Virus record (IMG/VR): IMGVR_UViG_3300047548_001281
Span: 1-56,286 of that record
Source of the DNA: a virus
Direction: 5' to 3' (one strand)
Length of the DNA: 56,286 bases
Shown here: positions 15,964 through 54,052 of the stretch, piece after piece
Layout: every line of letters starts with the position of its first letter
Position numbering within the stretch: the stretch's first letter is position 1
Made by a program: the position numbers and the translations under genes
The notes under the pieces: model-generated
Told to the model about the DNA's origin: nothing
Databases searched by the model: none
The model's input: the letters and a program-made list of their open reading frames with translations, nothing else

Positions 15964-17517
15964 TTAACTTATAATAGCAAAGAAGGGTAAAGGAGCTACA
16001 AATTCATCGTGATCGCGAATTTGTTCCTCTAAGTTTACATGGTAATCACTTAGATGCTGTAGCATTCTAATTACTAACAATGATGCCATTATCAAATCGT
16101 CTGTGTCACCTATTTTAGCAGCATAGCTACCACCTGAGGCAACGAATGCTTTTAACTCACTTATCAACGGTTTGCTGTACAAGGTCATTTTCTTGCTTTC
16201 TAACAATGTTTTAAATTTGGCACATGCCGTCAATTTAACTTTTTGAGTAGTATTGAAGCCTTTGCGTTTCTTTCCTGCTTCGCTTAAGAATATTCCAGGT
16301 ATATTGCTTTCGCCATATTCGTTTAGTGAGATTAAAGCAGCTTCACCTATACTATTATTTTCTATAGAATAATAAAGATTGTTAGGTTCATTTGTGATAT
16401 CAACTATATGCTTGTTGATTTGAGCTAATAATTTGATCTGATTGGGTATATCTGTTTTATTGTGGCGCCATTCACCTACTTGCGTAGTAGTATTTGCTTC
16501 AAATATTTGTATGGCTGCCGGATCTCCCCCAGTACCAAGGCTAGGATCTAATCCTACTACATAAATATTACCCGCTTCAGGTTTTTTATACCATCTAATT
16601 TGACCTATTTTTTCTACAGGATCAATACCTTCTAATTGAATAAGGGTATTTGGATTGATAAGAGTTTCATCAGCAATTAAAAACTTACATTCCATTTCCC
16701 TGGCAAAACGATCTGGACCCAATTGAGCTAACATCTGATCTGCCCATTTTTGATCGCGTTCGGGGTGTTCATGCCAATATGATTGATATGCCTTGAAACC
16801 ATTGACTCCTACATCAGTTTGATTACCATATTCATCTAAACATTTGTTAGCCCCTTTCCAAATTAGTGCGAACTGATCCTCGTCACTATTTGGTGTTGAA
16901 GTAATGATAGCTTTACCACCGGTCGCTAACGTGGGAGTAATAGAGGTCCAGAAAAGTTCTGCTATTGAAGGCCTAACGAAAGCAAACTCGTCTAGATATA
17001 AGAGTGAAATAGACATACCACGACCTGTATTTTCAGTAGTAGTCGCACTAACTATTCGTGAACCGTTTTCAAAGTCCAAGCTACCCTTGTTGTATGTCGT
17101 AACACCAGCTTTTATCCATTTTGGACAGTTTTCATAAGCATATCTAATACGCTGCATGATTTCTTGTGCACCAGTATATTTGTGGGCAGCTATAAGAATA
17201 GTACTATCGGGCACGAACATAGCATACCATAATAGGTATCCCGCGGCGCTGGTTGATTTGCCTGTTTGACGAGGCATCAATGAAATTGAATATCTATAAT
17301 TATGATATGTATGTATTAATCTTTTTTGATAGTCCCAGGGATGATAATGTACAGCACCTTTTGTGGGGTGCTGTATCATAAAAAAGTTATCCATGAAATA
17401 CAGATAACCATTAAAGGGGTCGCAGCATTTTATGAAATCATCTAATGCTTTTTGATCCGGAAAATGTGTTTTTACATATGGATCTTTTATAAAAGAATCT
17501 GTTTTACTCATACCCAT
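15964..17517 (-). CDS. 17: terminase large subunit (gp17-like)
   Basis: 517 aa (T4 gp17 is 610). ATPase domain with Walker A MPRQTGKS at 81-88 and Walker B LLYLDE at 172-177 followed by FAF; coupling motif ITSTPN near 205-210; RNase H-like nuclease domain with VVGLDPSLG (Asp 324) and DTDDLIMASL near the C terminus. It packages DNA into proheads and cuts concatemers. The start is ATG 17517 or the second Met (17511). A hairpin terminator separates it from the upstream methyltransferase. Confidence 0.96.
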   Translation of the reverse strand: MGMSKTDSFIKDPYVKTHFPDQKALDDFIKCCDPFNGYLYFMDNFFMIQHPTKGAVHYHPWDYQKRLIHTYHNYRYSISLMPRQTGKSTSAAGYLLWYAMFVPDSTILIAAHKYTGAQEIMQRIRYAYENCPKWIKAGVTTYNKGSLDFENGSRIVSATTTENTGRGMSISLLYLDEFAFVRPSIAELFWTSITPTLATGGKAIITSTPNSDEDQFALIWKGANKCLDEYGNQTDVGVNGFKAYQSYWHEHPERDQKWADQMLAQLGPDRFAREMECKFLIADETLINPNTLIQLEGIDPVEKIGQIRWYKKPEAGNIYVVGLDPSLGTGGDPAAIQIFEANTTTQVGEWRHNKTDIPNQIKLLAQINKHIVDITNEPNNLYYSIENNSIGEAALISLNEYGESNIPGIFLSEAGKKRKGFNTTQKVKLTACAKFKTLLESKKMTLYSKPLISELKAFVASGGSYAAKIGDTDDLIMASLLVIRMLQHLSDYHVNLEEQIRDHDEFVAPLPFFAIIS

Positions 17518-44990: not shown

Positions 44991-45620
44991 ATGTCATATT
45001 TAAGTAATCCAGCTTCGTCAGTTGAATTTGGTGTCGTCACAGTAGGCGCAAATATCAATGTGTTAGACGGCTTAATATCTATTGAGCAAAGTGTATCACC
45101 TAATGCCAATATAACTTTTGGCAATGCCAATATCACTGGCAATTTACTAGCTGGTGGAAATTTAGTAATAACTAGTGTAGTTCCCAGTGTGGGTTTAGGT
45201 TTAGCTTTAAGTAATGTTAATACTGGTGGAACAACTGCGTCTTTCAGTATTACTAATACTGGTGTCTTACAAGTACTAGCTGGACCCGGTATAAGTATTA
45301 GTAATGGCACAGGTAATGTAACTATATCTGCTACAGGCGCAGACTTGATAGCAGTATATGGTACAACCACAAACTACACAGCTACTGCCAACGATGAGTA
45401 CATTGGCGTCAGTAGCGCGAGTGCTATCACTATAACATTACCTACAGGTATACCAGGTCGTGTTTATACTATTAAAGATGAGTTTGGTCAGAGTAGTGGT
45501 AAGATAACTATACAACCTCAGATTGGTGAGTTAGTTGATGGTAAGGCTAACTACGTCATCAGCATACCTTATCAAAGTGTCAGCATAGTGTTCAGGAGCA
45601 CAGGATGGTGGATCATCTAA
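44991..45620 (+). CDS. fibre-like protein with shared C-terminal head domain, 209 aa
   Basis: N-terminal ~115 residues are beta-repeat-like (NANITFGNANITGNLLAGGN; VLQVLAGPGISISNGTGNV), typical of phage fibre shafts. Residues ~120-209 (YTATANDEYIGVSSAS ... YQSVSIVFRSTGWWII) are homologous to the C-terminal domain of the collagen-like protein. Starts at ATG after AAAGGAGTAAGT. Confidence 0.78.
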   Translation: MSYLSNPASSVEFGVVTVGANINVLDGLISIEQSVSPNANITFGNANITGNLLAGGNLVITSVVPSVGLGLALSNVNTGGTTASFSITNTGVLQVLAGPGISISNGTGNVTISATGADLIAVYGTTTNYTATANDEYIGVSSASAITITLPTGIPGRVYTIKDEFGQSSGKITIQPQIGELVDGKANYVISIPYQSVSIVFRSTGWWII

Positions 45621-46405
45621 AATTTCGTGGCGTAATCAATATGGTTAAGCCCAGCAAACCTGACTCAAGGGACTATAGATATCAGATAAAAAAGATATCA
45701 TTAAGACCTGAAGTTAATTTGCGAGAATTCGATAGTTTAGTAGAAGATCAAGGGGAATTAGGTAGTTGCGTGGGTAACGCAATTACCAATTCCTATGAGT
45801 TATTAGTCAAGCAATCATATCCTGATTACTTTGTAGAATTAAGCAGATTGTTTGTTTATTACAATGCCCGTATGATAGAAGGCACTGTCAATGAAGATTC
45901 TGGTGTTTATGAGATAAGAAACGCGCTAAAAGGCGTCAAAGAATATGGTATCTGTAAGGAAGAATTATGGCCTTATGATCCCGCAAAAGTAAATGTCAAA
46001 CCTCCCGATGAATGCTATGTTGAAGGTAGGCCAAGGACTATATCAAGCTATACTTCGCTATCTACTATAGGAGAAATGTTGGAAGTATTGAACTTAGGTA
46101 AGCCCGTAGTCATTGGCATGGATGTTTATTTGAGCTTTATGTATGTAAATAAAAGTAATCCTGTAGTTTCAATGCCCAACAGCGGGGACGCTTATGTAGG
46201 TGGACATAGTGTAAATCTTATGGGATATAATATAGAAAAATCTTGGTTTATTGCAAAGAATAGTTTTGGATCTGATTGGGGCGAAAATGGATATTGTTAT
46301 ATTCCATTTGCTTACGTTGAACAGTATGTTTTTGAAAAGTGGATATTTGATATCGTAGATCCCAAAACTACCATGTTAGTAGATGGTGCGCCTGGTGGGG
46401 ATTGA
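45605..46405 (+). CDS. papain-like (C1) cysteine protease, 266 aa
   Basis: The full C1A catalytic set is visible: oxyanion Gln 49 and Cys 55 in EDQGELGSCVGNAI, His 201 in YVGGHSVNLMGYN, and Asn 219 in AKNSFGSDWGENGYC. No signal peptide or propeptide is obvious; the N terminus SKPDSRDYRYQ is common in phage/bacterial members. ATG 45605 overlaps the previous gene by 16 bp and has a strong AGGAG site. Its 3' end overlaps the tRNA on the opposite strand. A virion-associated or host-targeting protease is inference. Confidence 0.92.
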   Translation: MVDHLKFRGVINMVKPSKPDSRDYRYQIKKISLRPEVNLREFDSLVEDQGELGSCVGNAITNSYELLVKQSYPDYFVELSRLFVYYNARMIEGTVNEDSGVYEIRNALKGVKEYGICKEELWPYDPAKVNVKPPDECYVEGRPRTISSYTSLSTIGEMLEVLNLGKPVVIGMDVYLSFMYVNKSNPVVSMPNSGDAYVGGHSVNLMGYNIEKSWFIAKNSFGSDWGENGYCYIPFAYVEQYVFEKWIFDIVDPKTTMLVDGAPGGD

Positions 46406-46458
46406 ACCCACTAATCAGAGGTTTAGAAGCTCCTGCCTATCCATTTAGCTTCAGGCGC
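46384..46458 (-). tRNA. tRNA, best-fitting anticodon CUA (amber suppressor); Arg-UCU alternative
   Basis: 75 nt with encoded CCA. Acceptor GCGCCTG/CAGGCGC (7 bp), discriminator A, T arm GTGGG-TTCAATC-CCCAC perfect, five-base variable loop GATTA. With a seven-base loop TTCTAAA the anticodon stem GGAGC/CCTCT has four pairs (one G-U) and one C-C mismatch, giving anticodon CUA. Reading UCU (Arg) needs an almost unpaired stem and a six-base variable loop. The D stem is weak and position 8 is A, not U. It could instead be a degenerate Arg tRNA. Confidence 0.8.
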
Positions 46459-46578: not shown

Positions 46579-47394
46579 ATGCCAGGAGTATCTTTAATTG
46601 GAGGGATGACTTTAACCTCAGGTGTGACTTTAACCTCAGGCGGTTCTGCACCACCTAGCGGTGCTATGGAGATTGTTTGGACTGTTCATCCAGATAGAAA
46701 AACTATAACTTTACCATTTAACAACGGCGGAGGTGCGATAAACCTCAATGTTGATTGGGGCGATGGCAGTTCTATAGAAAATGTATTACTTGAAAATCCC
46801 ACTCATACCTACGCTTCTGCAGGAGATTACACAATTTCAGTAACTGGTACTATGTCTCCTTTACCTAATGGAGCTAACTTTGGTTTGTTTGATCCATTTA
46901 ATCAGTTTCAGGCTGGAGTTAAGAGAATTAACTCGTGGGGCACTATACCTCTCACTAGCGCAGCATATGCTTTTTATAGAGGTGCTACAGTAGAGTATGT
47001 GGCGCAACCCACATTTACGAATTGGGCAGCGATGTTTGAAAGAGCAGCAGAATGGGGTTCATTTACAGCAGATATTTCTGGCTGGAATTCAAGTCAAGTT
47101 ACAAATATGACCCAAATGTTTAAGGAAGCATATAATTTTAACGGCAATATCAGTAGTTGGAATGTGGGAAATGTAACTAATATGGATAGTATGTTTGAGT
47201 CGGCTTATGTGTTTAATCAAAACATTAGTTCTTGGAATGTAGGGAATGTAACAGATATGGATGATATGTTTTTAAGTGCCCAAGCATTCAATCAAGATTT
47301 ATCAGGATGGAATGTCAGCAATGTTACTACATATAATAACTTTGATGCGGGAGCTACTGTTTGGACATTACCTAAACCTAATTTCCCAGCATAA
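46579..47394 (+). CDS. BspA/DUF285-type repeat protein with PKD-like domain, 271 aa
   Basis: The N terminus is glycine/threonine-rich (GMTLTSGVTLTSGG), then a PKD-like beta-sandwich (NLNVDWGDGSS ... THTYASAGDYTISVTG), then three to four DUF285 (lipoprotein BspA) repeats of ~25 aa: SWNVGNVTNMDSMF, SWNVGNVTDMDDMF, GWNVSNVTTYNNF. Such proteins are surface adhesins or fibre tips in large phages. It has no signal peptide, so a virion component is more likely than a secreted protein. Confidence 0.85.
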   Translation: MPGVSLIGGMTLTSGVTLTSGGSAPPSGAMEIVWTVHPDRKTITLPFNNGGGAINLNVDWGDGSSIENVLLENPTHTYASAGDYTISVTGTMSPLPNGANFGLFDPFNQFQAGVKRINSWGTIPLTSAAYAFYRGATVEYVAQPTFTNWAAMFERAAEWGSFTADISGWNSSQVTNMTQMFKEAYNFNGNISSWNVGNVTNMDSMFESAYVFNQNISSWNVGNVTDMDDMFLSAQAFNQDLSGWNVSNVTTYNNFDAGATVWTLPKPNFPA

Positions 47395-47438: not shown

Positions 47439-48926
47439 TTATACACTAAATGTTATTAGCAATTGCGAATTGCCCCGCTCATCTTCCATTCTTACCGGAT
47501 ATCCCCAAAGATATTCAATATGCTTCAATACTTTATCTGTGTCTTTGTTTAGACGCTCACTATTATGTGAAGTGTATCTTAGTTTTAGTTCGCGATTGCC
47601 TTTTAGATTAGCATCTACTACTTGTATATCAGGTTGATATCTGCTAATACTGTAATTTTTAGCAAGTGATTGGCGAATTTGATTGTACCCTGTACGGTTT
47701 TGTATATTGGATACAATAACATGATCTTCTTTTTCTATGTTTGTGATTTCAAACAAACCCCATTTACGCATAACAGTGGGGCTTAGAAATTGTAGAATAA
47801 AGCTTTCGTCACGATAATTTCTAACAGCATCTAAGCATGTCTCTAACCAATCACTACCTATCATGTGTGGAAAGTATTCACGATCCTCATCAGTGGGGTT
47901 AGTACATATTCTTCTTATATCAGTGAATATATCGAATCCTAATGCATAAGGATTATAACCGTTATAGTATTTGTGATCGTAGGGTAGTTGAGTAAGCACA
48001 CTACTATGACTATGAATGAACTCCATGTAGTGTCCATCATTGATAAGCTTTTTCTCCCACAATCTATTCATTATGTAATAGTGTGTGAAGCTTGCCCAGC
48101 CCTCATTCATTACTTTCGTTTGACGCTGAGGGTAAAAGTATTGTGCTATCTTGCGAACGATACGAACTATTTCACGCTGCCAAGATTCTAACTTGGGACT
48201 GTGTTTCTCAATAAAATACATTATGTTTTCTTGGGGCTCTTTGGGGAAGGTTTCTGGCTTTTTGTTCTCTTCTTTTTTAGCTTTTGTGGGTAATGTATTC
48301 CAAAGTTCGTTCGCTTGCTGTTGTACGTATTCTTCTCGTAGCTTTTGCTGTTCTAGTTCCTGCTTCTTATTAGGCTTTTGTGGGCGCTTGTACTTATCAA
48401 CACCATAATCCATAATAGCATGACAAGCATCTAAAGTTTCTTCTACTAATTTCGTACCATACTTTTCTTCGCACTCAGCAATATACTTTTTAGCAAAGAG
48501 CATATAATCAACTATACCTTCAGCATCAGTCCATTGCTTGAACAAATAATTGTTTTTGAAGAAATGATTATGACCATATGCTGCGTGTGCTATGACCAGT
48601 GTTTGCATGGTCATACTATTTTCTTCCATCAAATAAGATATACAAGGGCTAGAATTGATTACAATCTCATAAGCTAATCCCTGATATCCCTTGCGATAGT
48701 TATGCTCTTGCTGCAAGAAATGCTTACCAAAGCTCCAATGATTATACATTATAGGTAAACCATGACTAGCATAAGCATCAAGCATTTGATCGCTGCCTAT
48801 GATTTCTATTTGATTTGGGTATATGTCTAACTTTAATTCGTCAAAGGCAATTTTGGCGATGGCAGTTTCTACGTCTTTTAATCGCTTAAAATTCCAATGA
48901 TTATCTGTATAAAGAAGTTTAGCCAT
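47439..48926 (-). CDS. spoVR: SpoVR/YcgB family protein, 495 aa
   Basis: Begins MAKLLYTDNHWNFKRLKD and has family hallmarks: LPIMYNHWSFGKHF, QGLAYEIVINSSPCISYLMEEN, VIAHAAYGHNHFFKNN, YFYPQRQTKVMNEGWASF with HYY, and NPYALGFDIFTDI. Close to the ~500 aa of cellular members. ATG 48926 overlaps the yeaH stop by 8 bp. In enterobacteria ycgB, yeaH and yeaG are co-regulated in stationary phase. In this phage the three genes form one operon. Confidence 0.95.
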   Translation of the reverse strand: MAKLLYTDNHWNFKRLKDVETAIAKIAFDELKLDIYPNQIEIIGSDQMLDAYASHGLPIMYNHWSFGKHFLQQEHNYRKGYQGLAYEIVINSSPCISYLMEENSMTMQTLVIAHAAYGHNHFFKNNYLFKQWTDAEGIVDYMLFAKKYIAECEEKYGTKLVEETLDACHAIMDYGVDKYKRPQKPNKKQELEQQKLREEYVQQQANELWNTLPTKAKKEENKKPETFPKEPQENIMYFIEKHSPKLESWQREIVRIVRKIAQYFYPQRQTKVMNEGWASFTHYYIMNRLWEKKLINDGHYMEFIHSHSSVLTQLPYDHKYYNGYNPYALGFDIFTDIRRICTNPTDEDREYFPHMIGSDWLETCLDAVRNYRDESFILQFLSPTVMRKWGLFEITNIEKEDHVIVSNIQNRTGYNQIRQSLAKNYSISRYQPDIQVVDANLKGNRELKLRYTSHNSERLNKDTDKVLKHIEYLWGYPVRMEDERGNSQLLITFSV

Positions 48927-50205
48927 TTTTGACCTCAGACTTTGCAAATAGCTTTTTGAACACTGGCCAAATATCACTAACATCAGCAACGTGCTTTACT
49001 TTAAGTTGAGCAAATTCTTTTTCTAACTCTTCGTAAATATCCCACACATCGCTGTTGCCGCCTTGATGCATCATCTTGTACATGTTAAAAATTTCAACAT
49101 AAGCAAAGTATTGTACTTTAGGTAACAAATCTTTCATGGCTTTAGCTAATTCAGAGTTATCACTGGAATAATTGTCGCCGTCACTTACTTGTGCTACATA
49201 GATATTCCAATCATTTATGTTATATCTATCGTCAATGATTTTATCTGTTAATTTAATAGCCGTAGATACTACGGTACCACCACTTTCTCTGCTGCTGAAA
49301 AATGTTTCTTCATCAACTTCGCTGGCGCTTTCATGATGGCGAATAAAAACCACATCAAGTTTATTATATTTTCTTTTCAAGAATAAATGTAGCAAAAAGA
49401 AAAATCGTTTTGCTAAATCTTTTTCTCGTTGTCCCATAGAACCTGATACGTCCATCACACAAAACATTACCGCTTGTGTCATTGGTTGCGGTGTGGGGGT
49501 GAAGTTACGATAGCGTACATCAAAGGGATCTAGCCAAGGTACTGCTGTTTGTTTTTGTTTAAATAATTTAATTTTTTCTTGTAATTTCTGGATTAGAACA
49601 TCATCACCTACACGTTCGGCTTCTTTTAATTCTTTTTCAAGTTCTAATATTTCTTCGTCTTTGGGTCTACCTAAACCTAATCTACGACCTAAACTATTCT
49701 TCAATGAACGCACTACATCTAATTGACTAGGGTTGCCCACATTTGTAAAGCCAGCACGCTTTGGTTTTACTTTAGTCATATCTTTAAGTTGTTTTTTGAT
49801 TAAATGAGGTAGTTCTAAATCTTCAAAGATAAAATCTAAGAATTCATCTTGGTTGAGGACGAATTCAAAGTCATCTTCTCCCTCACCCAATCCACCTTTA
49901 GTTCCACCTTTTCCTTCACCATCTTTAGGTTTAGGTGATTTGTCTCCTACCACATGATCTTTGTTCCCAGGCAGAACATACTTTTTGTCGCCAGTTTTAT
50001 GGTCTATACCAAAGGTAGGTTCACCAATTCCTTTTACTTTGATTTTAGTTTTCTTGCCGTCGGTTTCGATATCGGTAATTTTACCGTTATCTATAGCTTC
50101 CTTTACCGCTTCTTTTATTTGTTCTTTACTGCGTTGAATAAATTTTTGTCGGTTTCGTAAAGCTTTATCTTTAGGGTTTAACCTACGGTCAATTATAGTA
50201 GTCAT
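48919..50205 (-). CDS. yeaH: YeaH / UPF0229 (DUF444) VWA protein, 428 aa
   Basis: N terminus IIDRRLNPKDKALRNRQKF is the DUF444 signature; a glycine/lysine-rich linker (~85-110); then a C-terminal VWA domain with MIDAS DVSGSM beginning at residue 252, FFSSRESGGTVVSTA and VAQVSDGDN. In bacteria it works with PrkA (YeaG) and SpoVR (YcgB). ATG is two bases after the prkA stop. Length matches cellular proteins (~425). Confidence 0.95.
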   Translation of the reverse strand: MTTIIDRRLNPKDKALRNRQKFIQRSKEQIKEAVKEAIDNGKITDIETDGKKTKIKVKGIGEPTFGIDHKTGDKKYVLPGNKDHVVGDKSPKPKDGEGKGGTKGGLGEGEDDFEFVLNQDEFLDFIFEDLELPHLIKKQLKDMTKVKPKRAGFTNVGNPSQLDVVRSLKNSLGRRLGLGRPKDEEILELEKELKEAERVGDDVLIQKLQEKIKLFKQKQTAVPWLDPFDVRYRNFTPTPQPMTQAVMFCVMDVSGSMGQREKDLAKRFFFLLHLFLKRKYNKLDVVFIRHHESASEVDEETFFSSRESGGTVVSTAIKLTDKIIDDRYNINDWNIYVAQVSDGDNYSSDNSELAKAMKDLLPKVQYFAYVEIFNMYKMMHQGGNSDVWDIYEELEKEFAQLKVKHVADVSDIWPVFKKLFAKSEVKNG

Positions 50206-50207
50206 CT

Positions 50208-52151
50208 TTAGTTAGATTTCCTGACTCTCATATACCAATCTGTAAGTCTACGGATCTGTCTTGATGTATATCCTTTCTCCTGCATTCTGGCTACGAAGTC
50301 ATTGTGCTTCTTTTCTAACTCTTTATCTTTCTTACTTTCAAAGCTGATAACTGGCAATAAATCTTCAACCTGACTAAACATCTTCTTTTCTAGTACATCA
50401 CGTAGAACAGCATAGCTTGTCCAACTTGGATTCTTACCTTTGTTCTCAGGCTTTGCTCTTGCACGCAAACAGAAGTTTACGATTTCATTACGGAAATCTT
50501 TAGGGTTAGCAATACCCGCAGGCTTTTCAATCTTTTCAAGTTCAGCGTTTAATAATGCGCGATCCATCAATAAACCATTATCGGGATCTTTGAATTCAAT
50601 ATCTTGTATCCAAGCATCAGCATATTCTACATAACGGTCAAATAGATTTTGCCCATATTCGCTGTAACTTTCTAGATATGCTTTTTGAATTTCATTACCT
50701 AAGAATTCAGCATAACGGGTAGCTAGTTCAGTTTTGATGAAGTCAAGATATTCTTGCTCTTTTTCCTCGCCAAACTGTTCACGCTTGATAGCGTTTTCTA
50801 ATACTAACATTAGATGAACAGGATCAGCGGCAATTTCATCAGGGGTGTGATTAAAAGTTTGTGAAAGTATCTTGTACGCAAATCGTGTACTGATACCATC
50901 CATGCCCTCATCTACACCCGCTACATCGCGATATTCCTGAATGCTCTTGGCTTTAGGATCGCTTTCTCTTATGTTTTCACCATCGTATACTCGCATTTTG
51001 CTGTACAGATTTGAATTTTCGTGTTCGCGGAGACGAGTTAATACGCTGAACTGAGCTAACATTTCCAATGTCTGGGGAGCGCAGGGAGCATTTCCTAACC
51101 CAGAGTGCTTAATCATTTTTTCATAGATTTTTTGTTCTTCTGATACACGTAGGCAATATGGCACTTTGATTACACAAATACGATCCAAGAATGCTTCATT
51201 ATTCTTGTTATTGCGGAATGTTTGCCATTCGCTTTCATTACTGTGTGCTAGTACGATACCTTGAAATGGTATTGCGCTAATAGCTTCAGTGCCTACATAG
51301 TTACCTTCTTGTGTAGCTGTTAGTAATGGATGTAGCACTTTAATAGGTGCTTTAAACATTTCTACGAATTCTAACAAGCCTTGATTAGAGCGGCACAATC
51401 CACCACTATAGCTATAAGCGTCTGTATCGTTTTGACTAAATTTTTCTAATTTTCTAATATCTACTTTACCTACTAGTGTAGAAATATCTTGATTGTTTTC
51501 GTCACCTGGCTCAGTTTTCATAACACCAATTTGCTCTAGTTTGCTTGGCATCAACTTGACCACACGGAATTTTTCTAAGTCTCCTCCAAACTCCTTCAAG
51601 CGTTTAACTGCCCAGGGACTGGGAATGCTTTGTAGATATCTACTATCTATACCATATTCTTCTTGTAATATTTTTTGGTATTCTTTGCTTGTGAATAATC
51701 CTAAAGGGCTTTCAAATACAGGACTAATTTCGCCTGTATGTGTAGCCAACACATATATAGGGTTTAATTCCATCAATTCTTTTAGCTTTTCAGCCAACGA
51801 TGATTTGCCGCCGCCTACTGGACCCAAAAGATAAAGCACTTGTTTTCGTTCTTCTAGTCCTTGTGCTGCGTATCTAAAATATCCTACGATACGTTCTATG
51901 GCATCTTCCATACCATAGAAATCTTTGAACGCTGGATAAATTCTTACTGTTCTGTTTGAAAATATACGGCTTAGTCTGGCGTCTTTACTTGTATCTACTA
52001 GTTCGGGTTCACCAATTGCTGCTACCATACGCTCGGCTGCGGTGGCATAAGCCATTTTATCTGTTTTGCACAATTCAAAATACTCATCAATAGTAATAGA
52101 ATTGACAGTATTTTTTTCAAAATTGCTTTTGAATAGCTTTGATATAGACAC
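50208..52151 (-). CDS. prkA: PrkA/YeaG serine protein kinase, 647 aa
   Basis: N-terminal AAA+-like domain with Walker A GPVGGGKS at 110-117; KLMPSKLEQIGV and DISTLVGKVDIRKLEKFSQND; GLLEFVEMFKAPIKVLHPLLTATQEG; C-terminal PrkA domain with RSPLPVISFESKKDKE-like segment and SRQIRRLTDWYMRV. Matches cellular length (~640). GTG start with AGGGAG. The first gene of the operon, 20 bp behind a GAATAAATA late promoter, so expressed late if that motif is active. Confidence 0.95.
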   Translation of the reverse strand: MSISKLFKSNFEKNTVNSITIDEYFELCKTDKMAYATAAERMVAAIGEPELVDTSKDARLSRIFSNRTVRIYPAFKDFYGMEDAIERIVGYFRYAAQGLEERKQVLYLLGPVGGGKSSLAEKLKELMELNPIYVLATHTGEISPVFESPLGLFTSKEYQKILQEEYGIDSRYLQSIPSPWAVKRLKEFGGDLEKFRVVKLMPSKLEQIGVMKTEPGDENNQDISTLVGKVDIRKLEKFSQNDTDAYSYSGGLCRSNQGLLEFVEMFKAPIKVLHPLLTATQEGNYVGTEAISAIPFQGIVLAHSNESEWQTFRNNKNNEAFLDRICVIKVPYCLRVSEEQKIYEKMIKHSGLGNAPCAPQTLEMLAQFSVLTRLREHENSNLYSKMRVYDGENIRESDPKAKSIQEYRDVAGVDEGMDGISTRFAYKILSQTFNHTPDEIAADPVHLMLVLENAIKREQFGEEKEQEYLDFIKTELATRYAEFLGNEIQKAYLESYSEYGQNLFDRYVEYADAWIQDIEFKDPDNGLLMDRALLNAELEKIEKPAGIANPKDFRNEIVNFCLRARAKPENKGKNPSWTSYAVLRDVLEKKMFSQVEDLLPVISFESKKDKELEKKHNDFVARMQEKGYTSRQIRRLTDWYMRVRKSN

Positions 52152-52996: not shown

Positions 52997-53069
52997 AGTA
53001 GACCTTTCATAAATTCAGTATATTTATTATACTCTTAACCTACTGAAAAGTAATTTGTATGTGCCCAAA

Positions 53070-53095
53070 CAAATAGGAGCTTGCGCTCCTATTTG
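53070..53095 (-). terminator. hairpin at the 3' end of the tmRNA gene
   Basis: CAAATAGGAGC pairs with GCTCCTATTTG around a GNRA-like four-base loop (11 bp). It lies just after the coding piece of the tmRNA and probably ends or protects the transcript. Confidence 0.75.
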
Positions 53096-53389
53096 GGTTA
53101 TTGGGTTACAAGGTTACCAACCCCGTGAAGATCACGCTGCTAGGCGTGTTTCTCCAAAATATGCATCATTTGCTGCATTTATTTTGTTTTGCTCCTACGA
53201 CCAGGTTACCCCAATCCTAACGACTTCTGCTTTGCCGATTCTAATTTCTGCCCTTCTAACCCCGTCGAATCCTTTCATCCCCATCAAAAGAATTACTAGC
53301 ACAACTCTTTTGATGTGAATGGTGGAGATGACGACATACGATAGTCGTGTCCGCAATTAGTACTTCAGAAACTTTCAAGGATATGAATC
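53096..53389 (-). ncRNA. ssrA: circularly permuted (two-piece) tmRNA
   Basis: The 5' part of the transcript is the acceptor piece: GCGGAC, a T arm ACGAC/GTCGT with an eight-base loop, then CATCTCC-ACCA (CCA at 53322-53320). A 37-nt intervening segment (53283-53319) with a 9-bp hairpin follows, then GGGGATG (53282-53276), which pairs with CATCTCC including the G3-U70 alanine identity pair. Next comes the hallmark GGATTCGACGGGG (53260-53272) and a tag frame from GCA 53173 to TGA 53132: ANDAYFGETRLAA. The order acceptor - spacer - coding is the permuted form. It rescues stalled ribosomes and tags nascent peptides. Confidence 0.93.
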
Positions 53390-54052
53390 CTAACGAACAT
53401 TAGTATTTATACTATGTCTACCTATTACCAATAAATCATTATTGTAAATTTCCCGTCTTACTTTATTATTTTTACCTTCATCTAAATTTACCAAATATCC
53501 CCTATCTACTATGAGTCCAAATATATCTATCAATTTAGATTCTATTGCGAGGGCCTGAACTTCTGTTAAATCTTCTTTTATAATTTGTACAACTACATCT
53601 TTATTGGACTTTTGAATTTTTTGCCTATATTTTCTATGTGAGTCATTTCTATCTAATTCATAAGCCCTATTATTTTGCCCTTTACCTATATAAAATGGGC
53701 GGTATGTTAAACCCAATGTGGCCGCAAAAGTGGTTATACCGTGTTTGCCAATGGCAACTTTATGGTTGGGATCACAATGGGCATAAACATAATATTTTTG
53801 ATTTAGGTCTCCTGCTTCGTATAAATGTGTTATATCAGTATTATAAATTCTGTTACAAGCATCAAATACATCTTTGGAATGGGCATTCTTTGAATAGAAT
53901 CCCTCTTTTGATCTTAAATTACCCAACATATTCTTAGACCAAGATAAAAGTTTTTTTAACTGCTCCTCTGATTTAGCGTCTACTTGGATATCATACAATG
54001 AACTTTTGGTCAGTTGTCCATTAATATTCACCTTTTTTCTTTCAATCAACAT
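53390..54052 (-). CDS. GIY-Y(I)G-type nuclease, 220 aa
   Basis: The GIY-YIG-like core is C-terminal: YYVYAHCDPN (about 87-96), RPFYIGKGQNNRAYELDRND, then KYRQKIQKSNKDVVVQIIKEDLTEVQALAIESKLIDIFG with the conserved Glu. The N-terminal ~85 residues (EEQLKKLLSWSKNMLGNLRSK) may bind DNA. Its TAG stop abuts the tmRNA 5' end, and the tmRNA late promoter lies inside its last codons. It is coupled to the upstream gene by an 11-bp overlap. Possibly a homing enzyme associated with the tmRNA locus. Confidence 0.82.
   Translation of the reverse strand: MLIERKKVNINGQLTKSSLYDIQVDAKSEEQLKKLLSWSKNMLGNLRSKEGFYSKNAHSKDVFDACNRIYNTDITHLYEAGDLNQKYYVYAHCDPNHKVAIGKHGITTFAATLGLTYRPFYIGKGQNNRAYELDRNDSHRKYRQKIQKSNKDVVVQIIKEDLTEVQALAIESKLIDIFGLIVDRGYLVNLDEGKNNKVRREIYNNDLLVIGRHSINTNVR
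53404..53411 (-). promoter_or_regulatory. late promoter (perfect TATAAATA) for the tmRNA
   Basis: Minus-strand GTATAAATAC within the last codons of the GIY-YIG gene. Transcription would start near 53397, a few bases before the acceptor piece. Confidence 0.65.

Follow-up and report, generated by a model that had tools for sequence, protein, structure and literature searches.

Circularly permuted, two-piece tmRNAs are already known from phages: among 402 tmRNA-bearing phages surveyed with ARAGORN, 53 carried a two-piece form, 50 of them marine or aquatic, and the gene of phage Melnitz was described (PMC9004378, 2022). For genes of this type, Rfam holds RF04321 (tmRNA_permuted), in which the alpha, beta and cyano models are merged (PMC11915505). 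Both tmRNA, detected by ARAGORN, and SmpB have been reported in huge phages (PMC7162821), and a DS6A-like molecule has been noted to inhibit tmRNA, possibly because it titrates SmpB (PMC4131195). The original prediction for the locus studied here held that a permuted phage copy would be notable in itself, a claim that the 2022 count of two-piece phage genes had already overtaken. Phage-borne permuted tmRNA is not new as a kind, and what the locus provides is a new, divergent example.

The window, by which we mean the whole stretch of DNA analyzed, is viral and linear, a fragment 56,286 bases long (IMG/VR record). A permuted tmRNA had been predicted on its minus strand at 53096-53389, and all of the parts named are present, in the order acceptor piece, intervening segment (IVS) and coding piece. 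RF04321 matched the minus strand at 53382-53132 with 61.4 bits (E 1.6e-9, cut-off 47), and this match covered the full length of the model (positions 1-213, all 213). The separate alpha, beta and cyano tmRNA models, which had been suggested as a check, each remained below their own cut-offs within the window. ARAGORN did not detect a permuted tmRNA in the window. Since RF04321 also reaches 45-65 bits in many proteobacteria, where the form of the gene was not established, the bit score alone is not decisive, and these scores are what would speak for a chance or spurious match, for instance to neighboring tRNA-like sequences. We regard that explanation as refuted by the independent complementarity of the two pieces, by covariation in the acceptor stem and by homology of the coding piece to high-scoring relatives. 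When aligned with relative L098, the coding piece showed 75.6% identity over 193 nt with a score of 210, while shuffles scored 102 at most; it is this homology that settles the identity of the window tmRNA, which the bit score alone would not. As a DNA query against annotated phages the window tmRNA gave no match, nor did an exact pattern taken from its own acceptor region when searched among viral contigs. Taken together, the covariance model, at least 120 viral homologues and compensatory changes in the acceptor stem support the predicted identity of the window gene as a phage-encoded, circularly permuted, alanine-type tmRNA.

On the minus strand, the acceptor piece opens with a hairpin found by sequence inspection, AGGAT-TCAT-ATCCT (53378-53391), whose counterpart in relatives is TTGC-TGTATGAA-GCAA. 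The 3′ strands of P2 (53353-53373), located by two-piece cofolding, are AGTTTCTG at 53373-53366 and CTAATTGC at 53360-53353. These are followed in the sequence by a T arm (53331-53348) with the stem ACGAC/GTCGT and an 8-nt loop, TATCGTAT, and then by the 3′ end of the acceptor piece (53320-53330), which consists of the acceptor 3′ strand CATCTCC (53330-53324) and an encoded ACCA (53323-53320). The spacer had been described as 37 nt with a 9-bp hairpin; a 37-nt IVS is present at 53319-53283, and RNAfold predicts a hairpin of 13 bp (-11.2 kcal/mol) that ends in TGAT, with no nested ORF. Downstream of it, as predicted, the acceptor 5′ strand GGGGATG (53276-53282; sequence and covariation) pairs with CATCTCC, including the G3-U70 wobble, to form a 7-bp acceptor stem that bridges the two pieces. 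The conserved TTCGAC found 3′ of this strand is present in the window (GGATTCGACGGGG), and cofolding placed the P2 5′ strands at 53243-53263 (GGGGTTAG at 53263-53256 and CAGAAATT at 53250-53243). Beyond the tag frame, sequence comparison yielded a candidate pseudoknot, GGGGTTGGTAACC-TTGT-AACCC-AA-TAACC (53096-53124), the second stem of which has an A-A mismatch in the window, where relatives have GACTA/TAGTC. RNAfold also gave a terminator-like hairpin with a weak T run, AAATAGGAGC-GCAA-GCTCCTATTT (53064-53094), which a consensus scan did not recover. The gene is slightly longer than the bounds originally given, with its 5′ hairpin extending to 53391 and the terminator-like hairpin lying at about 53094-53064.

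A lack of compensatory acceptor changes in related phages had been named as grounds for rejecting the prediction. To follow the acceptor stem across the clade, we parsed 117 permuted tmRNA genes, window included, and used 109 distinct relatives for covariation, in which the pieces were located by a fixed offset and a motif, with no pairing requirement. All seven positions of the acceptor stem are paired in 108 of these 109, whereas reshuffled partners reach this in 30 on average and 44 at most, a shuffle that ignores kinship. When only distinct strand combinations are counted, 13 of 14 are completely paired, against 2.9 on average and at most 10 after shuffling. Both G3-U70 and the T stem occur in every relative (109/109), and pairs 4, 5 and 6 covary, having changed type repeatedly; the compensatory changes in question are therefore present. 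We also observed that in L101, L113, L154, L162, L191, L200, L225 and L125 the acceptor piece ends in ACCT, not ACCA, and AGGT replaces TGAT before the coding piece, as a result of which the CCA region is perfectly paired in the precursor. In these genes, the last A of CCA would need to be added later.

For the tag, 13 codons ending in LAA and TGA had been predicted. The LAA ending and the stop TGA at 53132 are as described, and the frame (53132-53176, from sequence and relatives) is of the AND...LAA type, but the tag probably has 14 codons, AANDAYFGETRLAA, or 13 should translation resume at the second GCA. Because the resume codon in relatives sits directly 3′ of an A/T-rich run, the first GCA is the likelier start. 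The subgroup closest to the window in the post-tag region has the tags ANDNYYTEELRLAA and ANDDTFIGDLKLAA/ANDDTFIGALKLAA, while ANDSQFALAA and ANDEQFALAA are commoner in the clade, and AND...AA tags are intact in the relatives. The departure of window-type tags (AANDAYFGETRLAA, ANDNYYTEELRLAA and ANDDTFIGDLKLAA) from the two commoner ones is what would be expected of a phage-specific tag, unlike that of the host, which redirects or spares particular proteins. We consider such a role unlikely, however, given that all of these tags keep the AND start and AA end of ordinary degradation tags.

The 8-nt T loop, which had been flagged as odd, is real in the window sequence. It lacks TTCRA, its 5-bp stem is present, and the insertion is tolerated by RF04321. 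A 5-bp T stem with a 7-nt loop at the fixed offset fits 109/109 relatives, leaving the 8-nt loop unique to the window; T-loop sequences vary among the relatives and include the non-canonical GGCAGTG, with a length that always fits 7 nt. The window also scores lower (61 bits) than the relatives over cut-off (77-150 bits), and its acceptor piece is without the clade motif, though it retains a 5′ hairpin and two strands of P2 that can pair with the coding piece. Judged by its sequence, the window gene is a divergent member of the clade with a unique T loop and a distinct acceptor piece, deviations that a sequencing error in this one contig may have produced. The unusual loop, the low RF04321 score of 61.4 bits and the missing motif could also be read as decay of a formerly functional phage tmRNA, with damage already done to its T loop and D/T interaction. 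Against decay, no break is seen in the acceptor stem, G3-U70, P2, the tag frame, its stop or the first post-tag stem, and non-canonical T loops such as GGCAGTG occur in relatives too; we find it quite improbable. It is, by our assessment, highly probable that the window, from an uncultured jumbo phage, carries a functional gene for a two-piece alanine tmRNA in circularly permuted order.

The assignment to a phage lineage draws on a T4-type large terminase encoded in the window at 15964-17517, with phage proteins in the same contig. Viral contigs whose terminases are 80-87% identical to this one reach 524 kb, and the window is therefore a piece of an uncultured jumbo phage. The nearest terminases of annotated phages, at about 50%, belong to Sinorhizobium phage Phosso and the Pseudomonas PA5oct group. 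A permuted tmRNA over cut-off was found in 9/21 terminase-related viral contigs (24 records tested in all). A further 20 records, mostly picked because they contain the clade acceptor motif, gave 15 more, that of the cultured phage Phosso among them. This clade-specific motif of the acceptor piece occurs in at least 120 viral stretches, and a scan of 84,980 prokaryote genomes found it in just 3 contigs; its near-absence from the latter points to a phage lineage rather than host contamination. The Phosso gene (PV764938.1, 349596-350198, minus strand; L257; 113 bits) lies in an unannotated gap and has a long IVS of ∼0.4 kb.

Several features of the neighborhood deserve mention in their own right. 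An ORF on the minus strand at 53390-54052 ends just 5′ of the tmRNA and has a weak LEM-3-like GIY-YIG match (24 bits, under the Pfam cut-off), so it perhaps encodes a homing-type endonuclease. Downstream of the tmRNA, on the minus strand at 47439-52151, lies a PrkA-DUF444 (YeaH)-SpoVR trio, the PrkA of which shares 60-68% identity with its counterparts in Enterobacter phage LAU1 and the ∼640-kb phages. A tRNA-like gene with a CTA (amber) anticodon and an imperfect anticodon stem is found at 46384-46458 (minus strand). We rejected TAG recoding by such a tRNA, since TAG still stops 4 of 54 main ORFs and there is no general extension under code 15. On the plus strand, at 45605-46405 and 46579-47394, are an adjoining papain-like cysteine protease and DUF285/PKD-domain protein.

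The gene order, pairing partners, family covariation, tag frame and homologues are observed, and with them in hand we infer how the window tmRNA would be transcribed, processed, charged, used with SmpB and put to tagging, and how the phage would benefit. On the model of known two-piece tmRNAs, one precursor would be transcribed, with the IVS looped out as a hairpin, and host tRNA-processing enzymes would release the coding piece at G1 and the acceptor piece at its CCA. Still joined by the acceptor stem and P2, the two pieces would be charged by AlaRS through G3-U70. Neither Phosso, whose genome is complete, nor the related contigs tested yielded an SmpB, which suggests that the SmpB of the host is probably used. 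With it, the charged tmRNA would rescue stalled ribosomes during infection and add a tag with an LAA end, which host proteases, ClpXP for example, would recognize. The likeliest benefit to the phage would be that ribosome turnover is kept up during infection. The lack of an SmpB gene in the relatives tested, together with the inhibition reported for the DS6A-like molecule (PMC4131195), would also suit a molecule that serves mainly to inhibit host trans-translation, or as its decoy, through competition for SmpB, as proposed for mycobacteriophage DS6A. A pure decoy would have no need of a tag frame, resume region and stop, yet these are kept in the window and its relatives, and we consider this role very unlikely. 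Ribosome turnover is better supported than either a decoy or a phage-specific tag.

IVS length varies among the relatives, between 20 and about 530 nt. Its helix starts right after CCA and closes four bases 5′ of the coding piece, with 94% of cells paired compared with at most 67% in shuffles, and in 84/109 relatives the IVS ends in TGAT. In 27 of the 117 IVS, a loose rule finds an ORF whose Shine-Dalgarno-like start lies immediately 3′ of CCA, though at least that of L118 looks spurious; when the IVS is 170 nt or longer, an ORF spans it in 12 of 13 cases. Many of these nested ORFs stop at the TGA of the conserved TGAT that precedes the coding piece, and according to folds or helix register the ribosome-binding site of ORF-bearing precursors is predicted to fall within the IVS helix. 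Nested ORFs were noted in the related jumbo phages L102, L103, L105/L302, L107, L149, L197, L205, L213, L216 and L228. Non-synonymous and synonymous changes per site amount to 0.13 versus 0.63 for L149/L213 and to 0.04 versus 0.15 for L105/L107, rates by which the nested ORFs are judged to be under purifying selection. Among the products are a DUF2061 membrane protein, a CxxCxxCC protein, short peptides that by visual inspection seem to be transmembrane, and a 122-residue protein. To the eye the last resembled a GNAT protein, but it has no Pfam match. We also rejected a nested ORF in Phosso, where the ∼0.4-kb IVS has only a short, unconvincing one.

Nearly all of the close homologues found for such products lie inside tmRNA genes. 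All 13 of the full-length close homologues found for the 122-residue protein sit exactly between the two tmRNA pieces, as do 10/10 homologues of the Cys protein with enough downstream sequence; an eleventh is consistent up to the end of its contig, and one is cut short. The single distant homologue, L315 (67%), is located elsewhere. The tmRNA pieces that flank homologous nested ORFs vary. We found no report of ORFs in the IVS of a permuted tmRNA in the open literature, where older tmRNA papers were thinly covered, and nested small genes inside the tmRNA gene of this clade appear to be new. We think it rather probable that the clade's IVS is a site for exchangeable small-protein genes, with the ribosome-binding site right after CCA in the 5′ strand of the helix and the stop usually the TGA of TGAT. 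The transcript would then be both tmRNA precursor and mRNA, processing and translation may control each other, and the window, with its short IVS of 37 nt, would represent the ORF-less state. If this is confirmed, one transcript would link ribosome rescue and RNA processing to the production of small phage proteins, often of membrane type, and the relatives make a tmRNA precursor that doubles as an mRNA testable.

Among known systems, the window tmRNA resembles those of Melnitz and other aquatic phages (PMC9004378) in being phage-encoded and circularly permuted. The genome of Melnitz, a relative of the pelagimyophages, measures 141 kb and has a glutamine riboswitch next to ssrA (PMC9004378), whereas the window gene, missed by ARAGORN, belongs to another, jumbo-phage clade, a distinction made by description. 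In contrast to DS6A-type molecules, which have the tRNA-like domain only, it has a tag reading frame. The ∼640-kb huge phages LR756502.1, LR745206.1 and LR756504.1 (L110-L112) have SmpB and no match to the permuted tmRNA model, the reverse of what is found in the clade of the window. With RF04321 the window gene shares gene order and tRNA-like domain, differing by its 8-nt T loop and divergent acceptor piece. Like the alphaproteobacterial-type permuted tmRNAs of Pseudomonadota, the window and its clade have G3-U70 and an IVS hairpin, and tags such as ANDNYAEARLAA end in RLAA as the window tag does. The hairpin cannot be counted as a phage peculiarity, since bacterial permuted tmRNAs show similar ones, which in Pseudomonadota often open immediately 3′ of CCA and close a few nt 5′ of the coding piece. 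However, the bacterial IVS is without an ORF and measures 22-55 nt in 26 of 27 parsed genes (the remaining one, 379 nt, looks mis-parsed), whereas that of the phage clade reaches about 0.5 kb, and the genes nested there are the part worth following.
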